From: Vibrio sp. SCSIO 43136
GTDB taxonomy: Bacteria > Pseudomonadota > Gammaproteobacteria > Enterobacterales > Vibrionaceae
DNA length: 64,000 bases
Assembly (NCBI RefSeq): GCF_023716565.1
Contig: NZ_CP071848.1
Span: 3,038,001 to 3,102,000, forward strand
Direction of reading: 5' to 3'
In this document: in pieces, positions 7,697 through 64,000 of the stretch
How positions within the stretch are numbered: position 1 is the stretch's first letter
Layout: every line of letters starts with the position of its first letter
Notes under the pieces: generated by a model
The model's input: the letters and a program-made list of their open reading frames with translations, nothing else
Databases searched by the model: none
Told to the model about the DNA's origin: nothing
Translations under genes and position numbers: made by a program

Positions 7697-10249
7697 ATGG
7701 CACCCAATAAATTAACACTACGTAGCGCCGTTATCTTACCTTTCGTCATCGTATTTTTGGTGACGTTTGGTGTGGTGGCTAGCGTTCAGTACTCCAGCTA
7801 TGAAAACATGGTTGAGAAAATCAGCCATAAGCAGCTAGTCTCTTTTACTGAGAACATCAAAACCCGTCTCAGTGCTTTTCTTGAAGAGCCATTTCGAGCC
7901 AACATGACCTTCACTCGCACCGTGGAGTTCAGTGATCTGTACGAAGAAAACCAAATGCAAGCCATCGAAGACTACCTTTCGATGAGCTTTTCCCACCTAT
8001 CACCATACATAGAACACCTTGATGTGATTGGCTTTGGTGGCAAGGAAGGAGAATTTATTGGTTTTCGCCGTGAGAACAACGACAGCTTCACCTTGATGCT
8101 GCAAGATAGCCGCACCCAAAATGAATTGATCATATATCAAGGCGATGACGCACAATCAGGCATTCGTTCGCGCTTTCAAAACTACGACCCGCGCCAGCGC
8201 CCTTGGTACATTCCTGCCGCCGAGTCACTTCAGCCTTCTTGGTCACAGATTTACGCCAATGCCGATGAACGCCAAGAAATTACCCTATCAGCTATTCACC
8301 CTGTAATGGGCAACGAGGGCTTGCTCGGTGTAATGGTGTCGGATATTCGCATCAATACTTTCAATAGCTTCCTAAGACAGCAAAAAGCACGTACCACCGC
8401 CGCTATGTACATCTTTGACCGAGACAAACGCTTAGTCGCACACTCTGAGCCCGAAGGCGTGGTTTCGTTAGGTACTAAAGAGTCCAGCAAAGGCATGCGC
8501 TTGCTGGCCAGCGAAAACAATAACCAAGTCATTGCCAAAAGTGCTGAGTTCATCGACTTTGCACGCCTTGGCGACCCTTACGCTAACTTCAACTTTGAGT
8601 TTGAGCTAGAGGGTGAGCGCTACTTTAACAAGCTATCGCGCTTTCAGGGTCACTATGGCCTCGATTGGTACATCATGGTGACCATCTCAGAGCGAGACCT
8701 GCTTGGCGAATTACCGACGCAACAGCGCCAAGGGTTATTAATAGCGATTGCCGTGGCACTGGTTGGGTTGTTATTTGGAATGCTGGCGTTTAACCGCATC
8801 ACCCGCCCAATCACCAGTACTGCAAATGCTGCAAAAGAGTTAGCTAAAGGGGACTGGAACAGCCCGATGCCAGAGCCAGGCAACATCTTCGAAACCAGTA
8901 TGCTGGTCTCGGCATTTAACAATATGGCTGCTAACCTCAAGCACTCCTTTGACGCACTTCGCTCACAGCTGGTGTTTGACTCTCTAACCCAACTCTACAG
9001 CCGCCAAGGCTTGATTGAAGCCAGCTGCAAACTGCGCTCGCTGGACAAAGGTTCCTTGATCCTACTCGGCATCGATCGTTTTCGCGAAATCAACGATAGC
9101 CTAGGTCACTACAGTGGAGACCAACTGTTGGTGATCATGTCAGAACGCTTGAAGCTGCAATCGCCAGAAGGTGCCATGTTAGCCAGAGTGGCGGGTGATG
9201 AGTTTGCCGTGTTTTTGCCATGCGAGCATCAGCATGAAGAGATTGAAGTGCTCGCCAACCGAATCAAAACCTCTTTTAATGCCCCATTCCAAATGGGCGA
9301 CGACACCGTCGTAGTGAGTATTTCAATTGGCATGGTTGAAACGGACTCAAGCGCTAATATGAGTACTTGGCTACGTAATGCCAGTATTGCCTTAAGCCAT
9401 GCTAAACAAGAGCCATTAAGAACCGTGGTTTATCGCCCTGAGATGGCAGATAAGTCACGTAAGAAGACGCAAATCCTCGCCGAACTCAACCAAGCGATTG
9501 CCGCCAGTGAGTTTGTGCCTTTCTACCAACCAATCATCGACCTAGAGTCAGGGGAAGTGATTGGCGCAGAAGCACTAGCGCGTTGGGTGTCCGCAGAAAA
9601 AGGCGTGATCCCACCATTTGAATTTATTCCGGTGGCCGAAGAGAGCGGCCTTATCGGCGAAATTGGCGCTCAGATACTGCTAAAATCTTGTACCGACACC
9701 GCACTTGCGATCCACAGTGGTCAGTGGCCTCAAGATTTCAGCATTCACGTTAACCTGTCAGTGAACCAGCTTTCTCACACCGACTTCATCAGTGAGTTAA
9801 AGACCATTTTGCAAGATACCCAGCTACCCGCTGAAAACTTGACCCTAGAGCTGACGGAATCTCGCATTGTTGACAACGACCCTATTATTCTCAAAAACAT
9901 GCAAGCGATTAAGCAACTTGGCATCAAGATCGCCATTGACGATTTTGGTACAGGCTATTCATCATTGGCTTACCTGCACAAACTGCCCTTTGATTGCCTC
10001 AAGATTGATCGCTCGTTTGTCGACCAAATGCGCCAAGAGAATATTGATACTTCCATCGTGGCAGCTATCGTCAACATGGCTGAGGGCTTCAAATCTAACT
10101 TAGTCGCAGAAGGTGTTGAGACCAGCGAACAGGCCGATTTGCTGCGTCAACTCGGCTGCCCACAAGCCCAAGGTTACTTGTTTAGCCACCCCATGCCTTT
10201 TGCGGACTGGCCAACAAATTTAGTTAACATGCGGAGAGATTCGGCATAA
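7697..10249 (+). CDS. Membrane c-di-GMP enzyme: dCache-type sensor, HAMP, GGDEF and EAL domains
   Basis: The 850-residue protein has a transmembrane helix at about 10-32, a large periplasmic region (about 35-340) with the Cache-type segment DPRQRPWY, a second helix at about 345-367, a HAMP linker, then GGDEF and EAL domains. The cyclase motif reads AGDEF (residues 499-503), a variant often still active. The EAL domain looks catalytically complete: EAL at 625-627, LELTES, and IDDFGTGYSS with a following KIDRSF. It therefore probably degrades c-di-GMP and may also make it, in response to a periplasmic ligand I cannot name. It starts 64 bases after glnG on the same strand with a weak ribosome-binding site, so read-through from glnLG is possible. 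Domain calls are secure; net activity is not. Confidence 0.92.
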   Translation: MAPNKLTLRSAVILPFVIVFLVTFGVVASVQYSSYENMVEKISHKQLVSFTENIKTRLSAFLEEPFRANMTFTRTVEFSDLYEENQMQAIEDYLSMSFSHLSPYIEHLDVIGFGGKEGEFIGFRRENNDSFTLMLQDSRTQNELIIYQGDDAQSGIRSRFQNYDPRQRPWYIPAAESLQPSWSQIYANADERQEITLSAIHPVMGNEGLLGVMVSDIRINTFNSFLRQQKARTTAAMYIFDRDKRLVAHSEPEGVVSLGTKESSKGMRLLASENNNQVIAKSAEFIDFARLGDPYANFNFEFELEGERYFNKLSRFQGHYGLDWYIMVTISERDLLGELPTQQRQGLLIAIAVALVGLLFGMLAFNRITRPITSTANAAKELAKGDWNSPMPEPGNIFETSMLVSAFNNMAANLKHSFDALRSQLVFDSLTQLYSRQGLIEASCKLRSLDKGSLILLGIDRFREINDSLGHYSGDQLLVIMSERLKLQSPEGAMLARVAGDEFAVFLPCEHQHEEIEVLANRIKTSFNAPFQMGDDTVVVSISIGMVETDSSANMSTWLRNASIALSHAKQEPLRTVVYRPEMADKSRKKTQILAELNQAIAASEFVPFYQPIIDLESGEVIGAEALARWVSAEKGVIPPFEFIPVAEESGLIGEIGAQILLKSCTDTALAIHSGQWPQDFSIHVNLSVNQLSHTDFISELKTILQDTQLPAENLTLELTESRIVDNDPIILKNMQAIKQLGIKIAIDDFGTGYSSLAYLHKLPFDCLKIDRSFVDQMRQENIDTSIVAAIVNMAEGFKSNLVAEGVETSEQADLLRQLGCPQAQGYLFSHPMPFADWPTNLVNMRRDSA

Positions 10250-56500: not shown

Positions 56501-56704
56501 GCAGCGCAACGATTTAGTATTGGGTTGGTAATCGTCGCAGGTCTTGCCATCGGTACCCTGTTTACTCTGTTTGTACTGCCAGTGATATACAGCTTCCTTG
56601 CAGAGAAACACAAGCCATTGCCAGTGTTTGTCGAAGACAAAGATTTGGAAAAGTTGGCCCGAGCTGACGAAGCCAAAGCAGCACTTCGGGAGGTCAAGGA
56701 GTAA
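53576..56704 (+). CDS. vexB: RND multidrug efflux pump, VexB-like
   Basis: The 1042-residue inner-membrane pump has the HAE1-type N-terminus (FTDIFIKRPVLAISISFLIALLGMQA), twelve membrane helices and two large periplasmic loops. The proton-relay aspartates are in TM4 (LAIGLVVDDAIVVLENV), and there is a lysine in TM10 (LVGLITKHGILI). It would expel drugs, bile salts or similar compounds using proton motive force. GGGAGG precedes the ATG. It is the last gene of the operon; no outer-membrane channel gene is adjacent. Confidence 0.92.
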   Translation: MRFTDIFIKRPVLAISISFLIALLGMQAVFKMQVRQYPEMTNTVVTVTTSYYGASADLIQGFITQPLEQAVAQADNIDYMTSQSVMGKSTITVNMKLNTDPNAALADILAKTNSVRSQLPSESEDPTVTMSTGSTTAVMYIGFTSDELSSSQITDYLDRVVNPQLFAVNGVSKIDMYGGMKYALRVWLDPAKMAALKLTATDVMQILSANNFQSATGQATGEFVLYNGSADTQISNVDELKRLVVKSDVGEIIRLGDIAKVTLEKSHDVFRASANGEEAVVAAINGTPSANPINVAQDVWAMLPQLEKNLPSNITMRVMYDSTEAINESINEVIKTIIEAALIVLVVITLFLGSFRAVLIPIVTIPLSLIGVAMVMQAMGFSWNLMTLLAMVLAIGLVVDDAIVVLENVDRHLKLGESPFRAAIIGTREIAVPVIAMTLTLGAVYAPIALMGGITGSLFKEFALTLAGSVFVSGIVALTLSPMMCSKMLKANAKPGWFESTVHNFLDRMANGYERMLGGVMKMRGMMVVFSIIVFASLPILFKFIPSELAPAEDKGVVMLIGTGPSNANLDYLQNTMNEVNQILSDQPEVKFAQVFTGVPNSNQAFGLASMVPWSQREASQAEVSKRISELVKGVPGMSVAAFQMPELPGAGSGVPLQFVITTPNAFESLFQIASDVLVEVTRSPLFVYSTLDLNYDSATMKIHIDKDKAGMYGVTMQDIGMTLSTMMADGYVNRIDLNGRSYEVIPQVERRYRLNPESMNQYYVRASNGNMIPLGSLIDIEVVAEPRSLPHFNQLNSATVGTVPSPGVAMGDAINWFEEIAQTKLPNGYTHDYMGEARQFVTEGSALYATFGLALAIIFLVLAIQFESIRDPLVIMVSVPLAICGALIALAWGAFLDITTMNIYSQVGLITLVGLITKHGILICEVAKEEQLNHKKDRIEAVIAAAKIRLRPILMTTAAMIAGLIPLMYATGAGAAQRFSIGLVIVAGLAIGTLFTLFVLPVIYSFLAEKHKPLPVFVEDKDLEKLARADEAKAALREVKE

Positions 56705-56806
56705 TCGCAATCTACGGCTTGATGGGATGATTTCACATCTGAGCATCAAGCCGTTTACCGAGAAGCGATTACCCCGTACACTACCGATAATTAAAAAGGA
56801 GTGATT

Positions 56807-57064
56807 ATGTTTGACCCGAAAAAACTAGAGCAAGTGGCTAAGCAGATCCACGAAGCCATGCCAGCCCCAGTAAAAGAGCTAGGTACCGACGTGGAACAAA
56901 AAGTCCGCCAAGTGATCCAAGGCCAACTGAACAAGCTGGACGTGGTAAGCCGTGAAGAGTTTGATGTTCAGACTCAAGTGCTACTACGCACTCGCCAGAA
57001 GCTGACCGACCTTGAGTCAAAGCTGGCTGAGCTTGAAGCTAAACTGGCTGAAAAATCAGAATAA
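56807..57064 (+). CDS. ubiK: Ubiquinone biosynthesis accessory factor UbiK
   Basis: UbiK is a small coiled-coil protein that acts with UbiJ in the ubiquinone-synthesis complex. The 85 residues match E. coli UbiK (YqiC): [18 protein letters not shown] at the start and the very conserved [20 protein letters not shown], followed by a Leu/Glu heptad coiled coil. I chose ATG 56807 behind AAGGAG; a GTG at 56801 overlaps the ribosome-binding site. Confidence 0.95.
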
Positions 57065-57070
57065 TGAAAA

Positions 57071-57101
57071 CGCCCCAAGTCAGAAATGCTTGGGGCTTTT
57101 T
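57071..57101 (+). terminator. Rho-independent terminator of ubiK
   Basis: GCCCCAAG and CTTGGGGC form a perfect 8-base stem with a 9-base loop, followed by TTTTTCT. Confidence 0.9.
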
Positions 57102-57248
57102 CTAGCCATTCCTTTCACATTCAATACTTCCTTCCCAACAAACCACCAACAGTGAATTAAAAGCAACTTAATCAAAAAGCCATGATCTGTCCGCACTAGG
57201 ACAGAAAATGTGTAGATGACCCTATAAAGTTAAGGCTTAGCCCCACGA

Positions 57249-57557
57249 CTAAACAACGTGGTGTGGAACGACTCTGGCACTAGGCATTCCTCCATTTCGC
57301 AGATGACCAATATCCAACTTAACGCCAGTAAATGCTGAGCCACAGTCATCGCAACACTCACTTACTAAGCACCTCAACCTTAAATCGGTGGGGAAAAGGG
57401 TTGGAATATCTAAAAACAGCGCATCCCCTGTGCTAGTTAAGGTGTGACATAGCACAAAGTTTAGTTTACAGCAGAGCCTTACCTCCTCGTCAGCCATCTC
57501 GCTGTCTGTTCGAGTATCACCAAATGAAATCGATAAAAAACAAAGAGCTAACAACAT
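57249..57557 (-). CDS. Possible secreted Cys-rich protein
   Basis: A 102-codon frame starts with a signal-like hydrophobic segment (MLLALCFLSISFG) and carries about eight cysteines, including two CC pairs. No family is recognised, the ribosome-binding site is weak, and the frame lies alone in a 590-base intergenic region. It may be a real small exported protein or chance. Confidence 0.35.
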   Translation of the reverse strand: MLLALCFLSISFGDTRTDSEMADEEVRLCCKLNFVLCHTLTSTGDALFLDIPTLFPTDLRLRCLVSECCDDCGSAFTGVKLDIGHLRNGGMPSARVVPHHVV

Positions 57558-57655
57558 AATAATTAAGTATTAGTCAGTCATTAGGTAATAGTTAGGTACG
57601 CACCTCGTGCCACAAATTAACCTAAAGAAGTACATAACCACAGTGAGTAACGCTT

Positions 57656-58378
57656 ATGGATAAGCAAACAGATATAAAACCAACAAACTCTGTGAACTGG
57701 CCAAGTTATATGTCCAAACAAGCATGTGACTCTATTTGGGCTCAAGGGAAAGAACAGACGCTAAAGTCGGATCAGGTGCTCAACCAGCCTAGCCCGCATT
57801 TTTTGATCATTTATGTGGAGAAAGGTGCAATCAATCTATTCTCTCCGTCGAGTGAGATGGAGAGTGTGGTTGGGTGCGTCATCACCAGCGGTCAATGGGC
57901 AATCACGCAATTGGCCAATTTGCCAGGCCAGCAGCTACAGCTAAGCGCCCTATTTGATTCCAACATCAAAATCTTTGAAGGACAAAAGCTGCTAAAAATC
58001 CAAGCGCAACACCCAGAGCTAGAAAACTGGATTACTGCTTGTCAGAACAGCTGCAGCCAGCAGCTACTGCGCAGCAGCTTACTGGCAATGCAAAACAAAG
58101 CCGCATTGCTTGCCCACACCTTGCACCAGCTCTCTCAAGAGCACTCAGACCCTCGTCATCCTAACCGAATAGTGATCACCCAAAGCCAACTGAGTGAATT
58201 ACTTGGGACTCGGCGTCAGAGCATCAATGAGATTTTGCAGCTTTTCCAACTACGCAACATCTTGAAGCTGGGTCGAGGTCGGATCGACATCCTATGCAAG
58301 GAGTCGCTCCTTAATGTCTCTGAGCTCAAAAAGGAAGGTCAACAAGGTGGTCAGTTCAGTCTGGTAGACGTTGGATAA
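57656..58378 (+). CDS. Crp/Fnr-superfamily transcriptional regulator
   Basis: The 240-residue protein has an N-terminal cyclic-nucleotide-binding-like beta-roll (about 35-125), a long dimerisation helix and a C-terminal Crp-type helix-turn-helix (ITQSQLSELLGTRRQSINEIL, about 175-195). It lacks the N-terminal Cys cluster of FNR and the clear cAMP-pocket residues of CRP, so its signal is unknown. It converges with the ToxS-like gene, overlapping it by 23 bases. Its DNA targets are unknown, but the adjacent membrane regulator and kinase genes are obvious candidates. Confidence 0.85.
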   Translation: MDKQTDIKPTNSVNWPSYMSKQACDSIWAQGKEQTLKSDQVLNQPSPHFLIIYVEKGAINLFSPSSEMESVVGCVITSGQWAITQLANLPGQQLQLSALFDSNIKIFEGQKLLKIQAQHPELENWITACQNSCSQQLLRSSLLAMQNKAALLAHTLHQLSQEHSDPRHPNRIVITQSQLSELLGTRRQSINEILQLFQLRNILKLGRGRIDILCKESLLNVSELKKEGQQGGQFSLVDVG

Positions 58379-58856
58379 GATTACCGGCCTGCTGGGTGTA
58401 GTGAACCTCCAAATTTGAAGGGCTGCTGCGAAAAAGCAGTAGCTGATTGCTGTGGGGCAGTTTTTTGTAGTGATAAAGCGAAAAAAGGTCTCGATTAAAT
58501 ATATAGCCTTGCATAGCGAGCAATGCCTCTTGCTCAAGACTTGGCGCTGCTGAAGCAGGCGTAGCTCGACAACTGTCATTAACCGACAACAAGCGCTTTT
58601 TGAATGGCAGCTTGAAGACCCAAGCGGTGCACACAAAGCCAAGGTTGGGATGGTCAGGAAACCTTACGTACTGATTTAGGTACAGTGAATCAAGGCTAGT
58701 GTGCTGAGTAATTTGCACCACATCACCTTGCGTATTACGGGTGTAGACATCTCCTACCCCGACAAAATCCGCTTGTGCAAAACGAAACAGGGTGACGAGC
58801 AAGACCAGCACATTGATGGTGAGCAGTGCAACAAAGACTCTTTTTGAGGTCAGCAT
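58356..58856 (-). CDS. ToxS-like membrane partner protein
   Basis: The 166-residue protein has one N-terminal membrane helix (about 7-26, VFVALLTINVLVLLVTLFRF) and a periplasmic domain with two cysteines (FVCTAW and NDSCRAT). The size, topology and position right after a ToxR-type regulator match ToxS and TcpH, although I see no direct sequence identity. The ATG at 58856 overlaps the stop of the upstream gene (ATGCTGA), implying translational coupling. An alternative ATG lies at 58877. Its role would be to sense the periplasm or stabilise the partner. Confidence 0.7.
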   Translation of the reverse strand: MLTSKRVFVALLTINVLVLLVTLFRFAQADFVGVGDVYTRNTQGDVVQITQHTSLDSLYLNQYVRFPDHPNLGFVCTAWVFKLPFKKRLLSVNDSCRATPASAAPSLEQEALLAMQGYIFNRDLFSLYHYKKLPHSNQLLLFRSSPSNLEVHYTQQAGNLIQRLPD

Positions 58857-59377
58857 GGTATAGCCCCCAATGAACAAATCAGTGAGTAAGCACTTTCGTC
58901 ATGAAATGAGAAAAGATACCAAGCATCAAGTAACAGTAGCAAAACGATCAGCAGCAGATATCTATCACGAAACCACAGTCGCTTAGTCGATGGTTCAGTA
59001 AAAGGTAACGCAGAGTCCGCTTCACCTGTGGTTGCAGGTTCTGCGTGAGGTCGTTGCGGCGCAGCATCAGCCACGACGCAATGGCGAGACAATCGATAAC
59101 CGACGTTACGGATAGATTCCAAATCCGAGGTTGGGCTTAGCTCAAGGATACGTCTGAGTTTCGACACCATGTTGTTAACGACTTGATTACTGACTTCTTG
59201 ATTGGGCCAGCACGCATCAGGGTACTCATGATGAGGCACGACCTCCCCTTGCCGCTGACAAAGATAGAGCAAAAAAGCGATTTCACGTTGACTGAGTTTA
59301 TGGCGCACTTGCCCTTGCACAACGGTGCCACTGCTGGTGTCAACTCGCCATCCATTGACGATATATATGTATTCCAA
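58850..59377 (-). CDS. ToxR/CadC-like membrane-bound winged-helix regulator
   Basis: The 175-residue protein begins with an OmpR/PhoB-type winged helix (about 1-98, with REIAFLLYLCQRQGEVV, ACWPNQEVSNQVVNNMVSKLRRIL and IRNVGYRLS). A disordered linker and one membrane helix (about 136-153) follow, then a very short periplasmic tail of about 20 residues with two cysteines spaced CX6C. No ATG is available at the right place; the TTG at 59377 starts the domain where expected. It is divergent from the binding-protein gene and overlaps the ToxS-like gene. Confidence 0.82.
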   Translation of the reverse strand: MEYIYIVNGWRVDTSSGTVVQGQVRHKLSQREIAFLLYLCQRQGEVVPHHEYPDACWPNQEVSNQVVNNMVSKLRRILELSPTSDLESIRNVGYRLSRHCVVADAAPQRPHAEPATTGEADSALPFTEPSTKRLWFRDRYLLLIVLLLLLDAWYLFSFHDESAYSLICSLGAIPC

Positions 59378-59427
59378 GACTTCACCCGAGTGGTAAGCAA
59401 CAGACGTAATTACAGGATAATAAAGGT

Positions 59428-60954
59428 ATGTCTATTCAAACAAGGATCTGTCAGGCCATCAGTGCGAGCATTTGTACCTTGATAGTACAATCAAGCGTCA
59501 TGGCTGCAACGTTACCTGATGATCATGAACAAATCATCCAACAAGAGCTCGCCCAGCGGCCATCATACTTTGACATAAAAGATATACCAGAAATTACTGA
59601 TAAAAGACCCATACGTATCGTTGTAGAGCGTGGTCTAGGCAAAAGACTCCTAGCACCTTATATCATCCCCAAGTTCTCAGAGAAAACAGGGATTGAAGTG
59701 GAAGTGATCGAGCTCACATTAGAGCAGATGCTCAAAGAGCAACGCACTTCCGTCGTCAACCTACAAAGTCAGTACGACATGATATCTATTGAAGGCTCTT
59801 GGCTAAAAGGCTGGGCAGACCAAAGCTTGGTCTACTCATTAAGTGCCTTGGCCAAACGCTTTGACAGTGTCAGCAGTTTCAGCGCTCATACCAGCTACTT
59901 CTATTCTTCGCTGTTAACCATGATGAGCTATGAGCAGGAGCTGTATGCGCTACCTTACTCTAACTACACCATGGTCAATCACTATCGACACGACCTGTTT
60001 GAGCATCCAAGCGAGCAGCAGACATTTCTCGCCCAATACGGTTACCCACTTGCTCCGCCAAATGATGTGCAACAACTGCTTGATGTTGCCGAATTCTTCA
60101 CCCGAAGCAAAGGCAGTGCATTGGCGGGAGAAACACTCAGTGAGGATTTTTATGGTGTAACACTGATGGCAGGGTACGCACCCCATGTCGGTGACGAGTT
60201 CTCTACCTTAATCTGGGGGTTAAAAGGCCAGTGGTTCAAACCGGCTTACCACAATAACCTCAACTCAATACATGGCTTCTACATCGACGATGCAAATCCT
60301 GAATTCTTGCAGACCGCAGAAATTTACAAACAGCTACTCAAGTTTGCTCCTCCTCAAGCGTTGAGCTCTAGTTGGCGAGAAGGTTCTCAACAGTTCCGTC
60401 ACGGTAAAACAGCGATGTACCCATTTTCTTATAACAATGTATGGGCGCTGAATGCGCAAGTCGAAACCTTGGTACCAGGAGCCAAAATAGCCGCAGCGCA
60501 AGTACCGCTTGGCCAGCCCTACTTTGGCGGTTGGGGGATTGCGATTCCAATTGATGCTCGCAACGTAGAAGGGGCTTATTGGCTGAGCAAATATATGACC
60601 TCCTTTGAGGCGCAATTTGCCAATACACTCACTGCGGGCTCCCCTTGCCGTATCGATGTTGCAACCCACGAATTCTTTGCCCGGCCAGAACAGCACCTCA
60701 ATGGCGGAGCTCTGAACCAAGGACACATAGCGCTCACAGCCTGGCGCGATAACTGGCAAGACAAAGGCCATTACACCAGCATTGCCATGCAGCATATTTA
60801 TGACGTAATACAAGAAACCAGCTACTCGGTAGCCTCTCAACGGTTAGCCCCAGAGTTTGCTCTATCCAGTGCTAACAAAAAAATAAAAGAGCTTCACAAC
60901 CGTCACGGGCGAAGCCCATTCAAAGTGGCACCTCTAGAAGGATTTGCCCAATGA
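59428..60954 (+). CDS. Extracellular solute-binding protein, likely sensory
   Basis: The 508-residue protein has a signal peptide (about 1-26, ending SVMA-A) and a family-1-type periplasmic binding fold (RIVVERGLGKRLLAPYIIPKFSEKTGIEVEVIEL near the N-terminus, YSNYTMVNHYRHDLFE, FRHGKTAMYPFSYNN and FGGWGIAIPIDARN). Such proteins bind sugars, polyols or oligosaccharides. There are no permease or ATPase genes next to it. Its stop overlaps the start of the hybrid kinase gene (ATGA), so the two are translated together. This suggests it presents a ligand to the kinase, as LuxP does for LuxQ or TorT for TorS. Confidence 0.82.
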   Translation: MSIQTRICQAISASICTLIVQSSVMAATLPDDHEQIIQQELAQRPSYFDIKDIPEITDKRPIRIVVERGLGKRLLAPYIIPKFSEKTGIEVEVIELTLEQMLKEQRTSVVNLQSQYDMISIEGSWLKGWADQSLVYSLSALAKRFDSVSSFSAHTSYFYSSLLTMMSYEQELYALPYSNYTMVNHYRHDLFEHPSEQQTFLAQYGYPLAPPNDVQQLLDVAEFFTRSKGSALAGETLSEDFYGVTLMAGYAPHVGDEFSTLIWGLKGQWFKPAYHNNLNSIHGFYIDDANPEFLQTAEIYKQLLKFAPPQALSSSWREGSQQFRHGKTAMYPFSYNNVWALNAQVETLVPGAKIAAAQVPLGQPYFGGWGIAIPIDARNVEGAYWLSKYMTSFEAQFANTLTAGSPCRIDVATHEFFARPEQHLNGGALNQGHIALTAWRDNWQDKGHYTSIAMQHIYDVIQETSYSVASQRLAPEFALSSANKKIKELHNRHGRSPFKVAPLEGFAQ

Positions 60955-63900
60955 AAATGACCGTTCAACGTAAACTGCTGGCAGGCTTTTTGGCCATCAC
61001 GATTGGCTCTACACTCGCCTCAGTGCTTAACTTAGAAGCGCTACATACCTTAGGTCATAAGCTTACCCGAATTACGACCTTTAAGATGACCGATCTAGAG
61101 AACGCTATCCGCGCCAACTCTGCCATCGAAGATATCGCTGAAGCCTCTATATTTATTGACCAGCAAGGCACTGATACCCTGCTTGCTCAATACAAAAGTA
61201 GCTGGCACCAAGCGCACACCGCTCTATCACTGATCACCCCGGAAAGTTTGCAAGAGTCTGGCTTAACGACTCAAAAGTTAGACTCACTGCTTAACGACTA
61301 CCTCGAAGATCTGACCGAGATAGATCACCTGATGACCAGTCGCCAAATGATCGTCAATAAAGAGCACAAGCTGCTCAGCAGTCTCGATAAGCTCGAACCT
61401 GAACTCAACAAAGCCACCAAGACCATTCAAGCTTACTTTGAGTCTGCAGACATCCGTCAGCCTTCCTTGTCACTTTCCCGTTATGAAGCGGTCTCCCCTG
61501 AGTTCAATGCCATCATGTTCGAAGATATGTCGACCATGAGCTTGCTCAATACCACCGCTTACAATCTCAATGCACTTTATCAGGTAATGCTGCGAGTGAT
61601 CTCAGCGGAAGACAATCGTCAACTAGCCAAACTGCAATTGTCATTAGTGCAAATCAAAACCGAATTAGACCACCAGTTCACAATGCTAAGAGGCCATTTC
61701 ATCGGTCAGTCGCTACTCAACGTGTATCAGGAACTCATGCCCTTCATGGTCGGAGAAGAGTCCCTTATTCATCTCAAACGTCGAAAGCTACGTTTTACTG
61801 GTGTGATCACGGGTAAACTCAGTAGCCACCAGCAAACGGCGATGCAACTGCTATCAAATACCTCGTTGCTGGTGAGTCAGCGAGAGCAGCATATTCGTCA
61901 TGCCTCGGAAGAAATTGACCAGTTAACCCATACCGTCGCCATTGCGGTTATCGCCAGCAGTATCATTGCATTTTTAGCATCACTGTTCGTGGTTTATGGC
62001 TTTATTGGCCGCAATATCGCTCACCCTATTCGTGAAATGGCTCAGGCCATGCGAGACATTGCCAATGGCAAAAAAGTCGAGCCACTCAATCAAAACCGAA
62101 ATGATGAAATCGGTGATATGGCGGCAGCGCTCGAGATACTCTCTTGTCATGTCCAACGAGTCAAAGAAGCGGAAATAGAAAAGCATCAGCAGCAACAACT
62201 GCTCAATACCATACTCGATTCGGTCAATGCGTTGGTGATGGTAAGAGACGCCAGCGGCACTATTTTGCTTTCCAATAATTACTGTCAGTCGATCAAAGAC
62301 TGGCGGCAGTTGGATAGCGATTATGACCTCAGCAACGAGACCAACTTCAACGCCTTTGAAGAAACACTGCAACAGGTCTCGGGTATCGAGCATCAGTATC
62401 TGACTCAGTTGGTCCCACTCAAAAATGACGCTCAAGAAATTTATGGTTTGATTCGTCTTTCTACCGACATCAGCCAGCAAAAGGCCTATGAGCACGAGCT
62501 TGCAGAAGCCAAAGATGATGCGGAAGCCAGCACCAAGGCTAAGTCGGAGTTTCTTGCTGCAATGAGTCACGAGATCCGCACACCACTGAATGGGGTTTTA
62601 GGCACACTCGAAATGCTCAGCCTTACTGACATGAATTTGGAGCAACGTGACTATATCAATACCGTCAACGAATCGAGCCAAGCCCTGCTGTCGATCATCA
62701 ACGACATCTTAGATTTTTCCAAAATCGAAGCGGGTAAACTCGATATCGAGCCTGTGCCCACCGATATTCGCTCAACTATTGAAACCGTTGCGCACTTGCA
62801 CAACGCCAACTTACGCGACCGAGAATTAGAGATGAGGGTATTCATCGCCCCTGCGCTCTCTGCTCGACTGTCGGTTGACGATATACGTTTAAGGCAAGTA
62901 CTCGAAAACTTAGTCAGCAATGCGGTTAAGTTTACCCGCCAAGGTTATATAGCTCTTGAGGCACAAGTGTTGTGCGATAACCTGCACACGCAAATGATCT
63001 CCATCAGTGTGACCGATACGGGCATTGGCATCGCAAAAGCGGTGCAAGATAGTTTGTTCCAACAGTTCACTCAAGCCGAGTCTTCAACCACACGCCAATA
63101 CGGAGGAACCGGTTTAGGCCTTGCCATCTGTTACCGCCTCTGTGAACTCATGGGCATCAAACTCAGCCTTGAGAGTGAGCAAGGGGCTGGTAGTCGGTTT
63201 ACCTTAACCATGGAATTGCCAAAGCATAGCCAAGGCCATCTACTGAGCAATGACAGTCAAAGCCCTATCTATCTGTTGGAAAGCGATAGCCACCTTAACC
63301 AGACCGTGCGCAGCTACCTTAAACAGTTCAACCTCGACTTTGCTTATATCGATCAAAACGATGCCATCGAGCGCATGAGCCAAGCCAGCTCTAGTGACGG
63401 TCTGTTTATCATCGACTTTGCCAATTTCTCTTTACTTGCGACCCAAAACGAAAAGCAGATCGAAGATTGGTTGAATAGCCTTGAGGCCAGGATCTTGGTA
63501 CTGCACCCAAATCGCTCCTTATGGACAGATACCCAAACCTTTGTGACAAGTGCACCACTCAAACCATCGTTATTACACAAGGCACTTAAGCAACACATCG
63601 AGGCAACCGAGCAACCTAGCGAGGCGACTCCTAGCTACCAACCAGACACCACGACAGATCTCTCTAGCTACCACTTGTTGGTCGCAGAAGATAATGAAAT
63701 GAACCAGAGACTTATTGTTAATCAGCTCAAACACTTCAAGCTTGAGCACACCTTGGTTGAAAATGGCCAAGAAGCAATGAGTTTGCTGCAACAGTCCTGG
63801 TTGATGCCAGATACACAGCAATACGATGCTCTGCTGACAGATTGCCATATGCCGATCATGGATGGATATCAATTGGCGAACGAGATACGCAGACATGAGC

Positions 63901-64000
63901 CACTTGGTCAAAGACTGCCTATTATCGCTTTGACCGCCAATGCCTTGGTTGGCGAAAGTAAAAAGTGTTTAGACGCAGGGATGGATGATTTTCTCTCGAA
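60951..64000 (+). CDS. Hybrid sensor histidine kinase, C-terminus outside window
   Basis: At least 1016 codons are open from ATG 60951 to the window end. There is a membrane helix at about 9-30, a helical periplasmic sensor (about 31-325), a second helix at about 328-352, a HAMP linker, and a PAS-like segment (about 415-510). HisKA has the phosphorylated His540 in MSHEIRTPLNG and HATPase has NLVSNAVKF, DTGIGI and GGTGLGLAI. A degenerate receiver-like segment (about 765-860) precedes a complete receiver with Asp964 (LLTDCHMPIMDGYQ). A phosphotransfer domain may follow beyond the edge. The architecture is BarA/TorS-like. It is coupled to the binding-protein gene. Confidence 0.93.
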   Translation, partial: MKMTVQRKLLAGFLAITIGSTLASVLNLEALHTLGHKLTRITTFKMTDLENAIRANSAIEDIAEASIFIDQQGTDTLLAQYKSSWHQAHTALSLITPESLQESGLTTQKLDSLLNDYLEDLTEIDHLMTSRQMIVNKEHKLLSSLDKLEPELNKATKTIQAYFESADIRQPSLSLSRYEAVSPEFNAIMFEDMSTMSLLNTTAYNLNALYQVMLRVISAEDNRQLAKLQLSLVQIKTELDHQFTMLRGHFIGQSLLNVYQELMPFMVGEESLIHLKRRKLRFTGVITGKLSSHQQTAMQLLSNTSLLVSQREQHIRHASEEIDQLTHTVAIAVIASSIIAFLASLFVVYGFIGRNIAHPIREMAQAMRDIANGKKVEPLNQNRNDEIGDMAAALEILSCHVQRVKEAEIEKHQQQQLLNTILDSVNALVMVRDASGTILLSNNYCQSIKDWRQLDSDYDLSNETNFNAFEETLQQVSGIEHQYLTQLVPLKNDAQEIYGLIRLSTDISQQKAYEHELAEAKDDAEASTKAKSEFLAAMSHEIRTPLNGVLGTLEMLSLTDMNLEQRDYINTVNESSQALLSIINDILDFSKIEAGKLDIEPVPTDIRSTIETVAHLHNANLRDRELEMRVFIAPALSARLSVDDIRLRQVLENLVSNAVKFTRQGYIALEAQVLCDNLHTQMISISVTDTGIGIAKAVQDSLFQQFTQAESSTTRQYGGTGLGLAICYRLCELMGIKLSLESEQGAGSRFTLTMELPKHSQGHLLSNDSQSPIYLLESDSHLNQTVRSYLKQFNLDFAYIDQNDAIERMSQASSSDGLFIIDFANFSLLATQNEKQIEDWLNSLEARILVLHPNRSLWTDTQTFVTSAPLKPSLLHKALKQHIEATEQPSEATPSYQPDTTTDLSSYHLLVAEDNEMNQRLIVNQLKHFKLEHTLVENGQEAMSLLQQSWLMPDTQQYDALLTDCHMPIMDGYQLANEIRRHEPLGQRLPIIALTANALVGESKKCLDAGMDDFLS

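Follow-up and report, generated by a model that had tools for sequence, protein, structure and literature searches.

A conserved, rare sensory unit of five genes was identified at the end of a 64,000-nucleotide stretch (the window) of Vibrio sp. SCSIO 43136, contig NZ_CP071848.1, positions 3,038,001 to 3,102,000. The unit, whose gene combination was described by no paper listed in searches of an open-access library, encodes a Crp/Fnr-like regulator, a ToxR/ToxS-like pair, a periplasmic solute-binding protein and a hybrid histidine kinase, and it recurs in V. hannami in the same order and orientation. With roughly even confidence, it is proposed that the binding protein docks on the TorS-like hybrid kinase, while the divergent, reduced TcpP/TcpH-like pair controls the expression of both through a 50-base gap. 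The open reading frame (ORF) listing placed the five regulatory or sensory genes at the window end, with the kinase extending past the edge. The features were as follows (aa, amino acids).

57072..57096, plus strand: terminator-like hairpin after ubiK, the left boundary of the cluster
57656..58378, plus strand: Crp/Fnr-like regulator, 240 aa, with a Crp-type helix-turn-helix (HTH); 45% identity to the V. hannami copy
58356..58856, minus strand: ToxS/TcpH-like partner, 166 aa from ATG 58856, without Pfam match
58850..59377, minus strand: ToxR/TcpP-like membrane-tethered regulator, 175 aa, TTG start, with a Trans_reg_C winged helix
58853..58856, minus strand: the ToxS-like ATG overlaps, with a one-base shift, the TGC that encodes the C-terminal cysteine of the ToxR-like protein
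59378..59427, no strand: divergent intergenic region of 50 bases between the ToxR-like and binding-protein genes
59428..60954, plus strand: periplasmic solute-binding protein, SBP_bac_1/SBP_bac_8, 508 aa, of the receptor-linked clade
60951..64000, plus strand: hybrid histidine kinase, 1041 aa, ending at window-equivalent 64076

The preliminary description of this DNA had reported five packed genes with overlaps of 23, 7 and 4 bases and a 50-base divergent gap, and all coordinates agreed. The Crp-like and ToxS-like genes overlapped by 23 bases (58356-58378), the binding-protein and kinase genes by 4 bases (60951-60954), and the ToxS-like and ToxR-like genes by 7 bases (58850-58856), taking ATG 58856 as the ToxS-like start instead of TTG 58877, the first start given by the ORF finder. 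The response regulator that had been suggested as a thing to seek past 64000 was absent, the kinase ending at 64076 and being followed by the convergent uvrD. No permease gene lay within the cluster, no REC-EAL (receiver and EAL domain) gene adjoined it in the flanks examined, and no Rfam match was obtained in 56700-64000 up to E 0.1.

The binding-protein search matched 5 of 329 Vibrionaceae genomes (E up to 1e-30), an earlier draw of 247 having given 3 matches. These five were the own genome, V. hannami, and three genomes with a cyclase-linked form (G005, G184 and G316). The kinase-linked form was present in two of the five, the window genome and V. hannami, both with all five genes in the same order. 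The V. hannami locus (L012, to which G284 was identical over 12,001 bases) read Crp-like (+), ToxS-like and ToxR-like (-), binding protein and kinase (+); since it holds all five genes, the neighbourhood on whose recurrence in other genomes the preliminary description had staked its reading does occur elsewhere. Identities by tblastn were 45% for the Crp-like protein, 36% for the ToxS-like protein (query residues 57-171), 48% for the ToxR-like protein (query residues 1-132), 53% for the binding protein and 51% for the kinase. The divergent gap of V. hannami measured 49 bases with the ATGs at 9930 and 9980 taken as starts. Among 5.8 billion proteins, in a search which scored only the 7995 candidates sharing most words, the kinase sensor had three members at E up to 0.001, namely the window protein, that of V. 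hannami and one metagenomic protein. The last lies on a 9439-base contig, and a binding protein with 59% identity was found on a contig also of 9439 bases, presumably the same one.

Because the linkage is conserved, it is likely that both branches act in one circuit, as had been suggested; of the two directions left open by that suggestion, control of kinase transcription by the pair is preferred over an action of the kinase on the membrane regulator. It is unlikely, though deserving of some weight, that two independent cassettes, the binding-protein/kinase pair and the ToxR/ToxS-like pair, merely travel together, sharing a site and regulating unrelated targets. Such an origin would agree with the cluster forming a single block, as expected of a transferable island, between ubiK and uvrD, two genes that lie within about 0.1 kb of each other in the relative G248, and with the cyclase-linked relatives of the binding protein, for which a ToxR/ToxS-like or Crp-like neighbour was matched in 0 of 24 loci. 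However, the arrangement and the divergent gap of 49-50 bases were kept at about 50% protein identity amid different flanking genes, and the starts of the binding-protein and ToxR-like genes would leave little space for separate promoters.

The binding protein matched SBP_bac_1 and SBP_bac_8 in Pfam and was of sugar type. Its nearest solved relatives by profile, with part of the profile matched, were the sugar and sorbitol binding proteins 5iai and 4rya, and the ligand is therefore probably a sugar or polyol. Loci were fetched for the 80 best-ranking of 366 candidates, and 36 of these entered a tree of 40 rows together with G005, G184, the window and P0003; L043 (with a split binding-protein gene), L038 and more distant or unclear loci were left out. 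Each of three groups fell on one side of a branch, ATP-binding cassette (ABC) with 14 rows (100/100), diguanylate cyclase with 23 rows (85/98) and histidine kinase with 3 rows (100/100), the tool warning of long branches meeting at the group splits. A permease gene followed in all 14 ABC rows, and a GGDEF gene in every one of the 24 cyclase-type loci, among them L043 and L019 (with a gene split in two frames in the latter), and also in G316. The receptor-linked binding proteins formed one clade in this tree. L038, a member of alignment A2, is followed by a permease gene and hence was not counted as a receptor. The cyclase-linked loci (L013-L031, L039, L041, L043, L092 and L093) came from Shewanella, Marinomonas, Pseudoalteromonas, other gammaproteobacteria and two Vibrionaceae; G316, one more member of the Vibrionaceae, had a split binding-protein gene.

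This family bears on a further alternative, that the binding protein serves transport with distant permeases while the kinase senses directly via its own helical sensor, like McpS/PilJ-type sensors. That appears very improbable in view of the clade, of the cluster being free of a permease gene, and of the gene overlap: the genes of binding protein and receptor share 4 bases here and in 17 of the 24 cyclase loci, and some overlap occurs in 21 of the 24 (mechanical ORF starts). The nearest logic to that of the cyclase-linked relatives is found in NspS/MbaA, the polyamine-sensing system of V. cholerae, in which a binding protein and a membrane receptor are likewise encoded by overlapping genes, according to PMC8967002. 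MbaA, however, is a GGDEF-EAL protein; the window locus instead has a hybrid kinase as its output and a sugar-class binding protein.

The kinase showed the layout transmembrane (TM) segment, TorS-like helical sensor, TM segment, HAMP, HisKA (His540), HATPase and receiver (Asp964, from the receiver motif), and no Hpt domain was matched in Pfam scans. Profile comparison indicated that its periplasmic domain is homologous to the sensors of the binding-protein-linked diguanylate cyclases; compared singly with the kinase profile, 5 of 12 cyclase sensors scored 26-36, clearly above controls. The structure model gave a TorS-like fold by Foldseek, and the sensor, as modelled, is of the TorS-like (helical bimodular) periplasmic type. 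Of the LuxPQ/TorTS-type pair named in the preliminary description, the TorS-like part is thus retained at the level of a modelled fold and the LuxPQ part is not: the best stretch of the NCBIfam LuxQ match covered residues 291-768 with 277.5 bits against a cut-off of 1200. As in TorT/TorS, a periplasmic binding-protein gene stands beside the gene of a hybrid kinase with a sensor modelled on the TorS fold; with the TorS models, the best stretch of similarity in the window kinase covered the kinase part. TorS contains an HPt domain and has an adjacent OmpR-type response regulator, whereas the window kinase has neither an HPt match nor an adjacent response regulator, and its binding protein is SBP_bac_1 rather than of the TorT type.

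The ToxR-like protein carries a Trans_reg_C winged helix at its N-terminus (Pfam, E 1.3e-11) and, by simple hydropathy, a single TM-like stretch at about 140-158. A folded alpha-beta periplasmic domain was not found in it, as only about 17 residues (about 22 in V. hannami) follow the TM stretch; this tail contains a CX6C pair (Cys 168/175; 174/181 in V. hannami). The ToxS-like protein has one N-terminal TM-like helix and a CX19C pair which is conserved in V. hannami, where its ATG also overlaps the ToxR-like C-terminal cysteine codon (L012:9388-9391). An N-terminal winged helix, one TM segment and a C-terminal cysteine are shared with TcpP/TcpH, ToxR/ToxS, VtrA/VtrC and PsaE/PsaF, as these are presented in PMC9214523, and so are a partner with an N-terminal TM segment and no family match and a partner ATG overlapping the cysteine codon. 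The same paper describes this codon overlap as a tendency, with exceptions, of TcpP/TcpH, PsaE/PsaF and three other pairs. The window regulator differs in its periplasmic part of about 17 residues, compared with about 25% of the protein in PsaE (PMC8407435), and in its linkage, the pair having a binding protein and a kinase as neighbours and not a virulence operon. Because the tail is so short, the pair is called co-component-like and not a member of the VtrA/VtrC superfamily; the earlier assignment holds for the TcpP/TcpH-type look and not for a full ToxR, given that almost no periplasmic domain is left. Since the cysteines of PsaE affect the stability of both partners (PMC8407435), the ToxR-like protein may be stabilised by its partner via the two cysteine pairs, and it likely works like a co-component with the partner doing the sensing.

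A protein database search with the ToxS-like protein found only itself. The V. hannami gene (L012:8888-9391), missed in this search, was found by tblastn, and the protein search is therefore no proof of absence; the sources may lack an annotated protein for this gene, or the word filter may have passed over it. ToxS-like matches occurred in 5 of the 247 genomes (E up to 0.01), the own genome included. The other 4 all contained stops, with E values exceeding 0.001, and were not counted; neighbourhoods were fetched for three of them (L126-L128), which lay largely over an opposite-strand reading frame.

In the Crp-like protein no cyclic-nucleotide-binding match (PF00027, Pfam) was obtained, and the RSA motif of CRP, which belongs to the conserved cyclic-nucleotide pocket, was not kept in the alignment to 4bh9; the pocket of cAMP-type CRP was thus not found in it. 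Crp-like relatives occurred in 36 of the 247 Vibrionaceae genomes, the own one counted, with 43 matches, and the neighbourhoods of 15 of the 42 matches outside the window cluster were fetched. A REC-EAL gene directly adjoined the Crp-like relative in 6 of the 15, all six confirmed by Pfam. One of these loci (L114), on the own second contig, combines the Crp-like relative with REC-EAL, a Vie-type kinase and a VieB-like REC-TPR protein. These loci are comparable to Roc/Pvr-type loci, the RR_EAL_PvrR model matching below its cut-off. In L114:2365-9513, L116, L122, L129 and L131, which are Vie-type loci, the REC-EAL protein has no DNA-binding domain and a Crp-like gene stands beside it. Like VieSAB of V. 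cholerae, some loci of Crp-like relatives combine a hybrid kinase with a VieB-like REC-TPR protein and a REC-EAL regulator. They differ from it since VieA is a REC-EAL-HTH protein (PMC4352251); it is as if the HTH of VieA had given way to a protein of its own. On one side of the V. hannami cluster lie a REC-EAL gene and the gene of a Vie-type kinase carrying SBP_bac_3 and Hpt; on the other, 28 bases downstream, is a GGDEF gene. Together, the GGDEF partners of the binding-protein family, the REC-EAL genes beside Crp-like relatives and the presence of both kinds around the V. hannami cluster support, without proving, a connection to cyclic di-GMP (c-di-GMP).

The last two of these observations would also suit a Vie/Roc/Pvr-type c-di-GMP system consisting of the kinase and the Crp-like protein, in which the phosphorelay ends on a REC-EAL protein, the c-di-GMP level changes, the Crp-like protein responds to this, and the ToxR/ToxS-like pair is merely an input to the Crp-like branch. 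We consider this improbable, as nothing of a VieSAB-type set, REC-EAL included, adjoins the window cluster, and identity between the Crp-like protein of the window and five REC-EAL-linked ones reaches only about 20-26% (pairwise BLAST).

In the preferred mechanism, a sugar or polyol would be bound by the periplasmic binding protein, which would then dock on the kinase sensor as TorT does on TorS, a step suggested by the gene overlap and the tree. Phosphate would pass from His540 to Asp964 and then to an HPt domain encoded outside the cluster, the host having 14 HPt matches. The ToxR-like protein, stabilised by its ToxS-like partner through both cysteine pairs, may bind the divergent gap and so control the binding-protein and kinase genes. 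Output might proceed via c-di-GMP, the Crp-like protein serving as a linked arm of transcriptional control. Wired in this way, the locus would show how two kinds of outside-sensing switch are connected. With somewhat less than even confidence, a composite receptor can be envisaged that couples a minimal co-component regulator to a binding-protein/TorS-like kinase, the former either governing the latter or having signals in common with it. The periplasmic domain of the regulator would have been reduced to a disulfide loop, and the kinase sensor would be exchangeable, pairs of binding protein and sensor of this kind driving a diguanylate cyclase in Shewanella, Marinomonas and Pseudoalteromonas and the hybrid kinase in the window. 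If true, one-component, two-component and second-messenger signalling would be joined in one portable module. In the papers cited, co-component pairs are discussed as virulence regulators; the present accessory block joins such a pair stably to a receptor of metabolite type. Whether a partner can sense on its own could be tested with the ToxR-like tail, shortened as it is. A natural experiment in output swapping is provided by the binding-protein family, whose outputs are transporter, cyclase and kinase and whose cyclase and kinase members have homologous sensors; how a binding protein chooses its receptor thereby becomes a testable question.

Several results weigh against the coupling of the two branches or against its parts. 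Only two full clusters are known, so that the coupling rests on a single synteny comparison, and on the metagenomic contig only the binding protein and kinase were seen. A consensus scan of 57000-61000 found 0 sigma-70-type sites, with 4.2 expected. The published periplasmic fold would not fit into the short ToxR-like tail, and for the lipocalin-like fold of co-component partners the ToxS-like protein gave only a low-confidence structure model. For the kinase sensor, the remaining 7 of 12 cyclase sensors scored 16-21, at or near controls, Foldseek gave no match at 1e-3 or better, and McpZ, McpS and PilJ scored nearly as high as TorS, helical bundles aligning easily. The other 9 of the 15 Crp-like relatives had no adjoining REC-EAL, leaving the REC-EAL linkage in a minority.

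The 4.97 Mb genome has two contigs, and the window is part of the larger one. There, ubiK and uvrD are 7,045 bases apart and enclose exactly this cluster; in the other relatives with both genes (sample of 31), they were at least 13 kb apart or on different contigs. A recent foreign origin gave no signal by composition, with a GC content of 0.476 in the cluster and 0.471 in the window. Repeats were absent inside the left flank, and the right flank held only a terminator-like inverted repeat; between the cluster ends the longest shared word was 10 bases and the best blastn E was 0.064, and a terminal repeat was rejected. From ubiK to the Crp-like gene (57065-57655), about 590 bases held no plausible plus-strand reading frame; a yifB remnant was rejected there, stops breaking all three plus-strand frames, and the minus strand contained a 102-aa ORF. 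The ubiK neighbourhood has taken other insertions, as in G248, where what we take from sequence to be a reverse-transcriptase-like ORF and an ABC-type set lie between an RND gene and ubiK (L144:1914-3197). The rest of the window had been called housekeeping; looked at for 40-57 kb, it also contains what are presumably an RND efflux operon and a dipeptide-type ABC system. Behind uvrD (L008:12459-14959, window-equivalent 66458-68958), a small Cys-containing secreted protein, a 284-aa DUF692-like enzyme, and DUF2063-like and DoxX-like proteins are encoded, a set which we assume to resemble a bufferin peptide operon, and similar genes also lie behind uvrD in L144.
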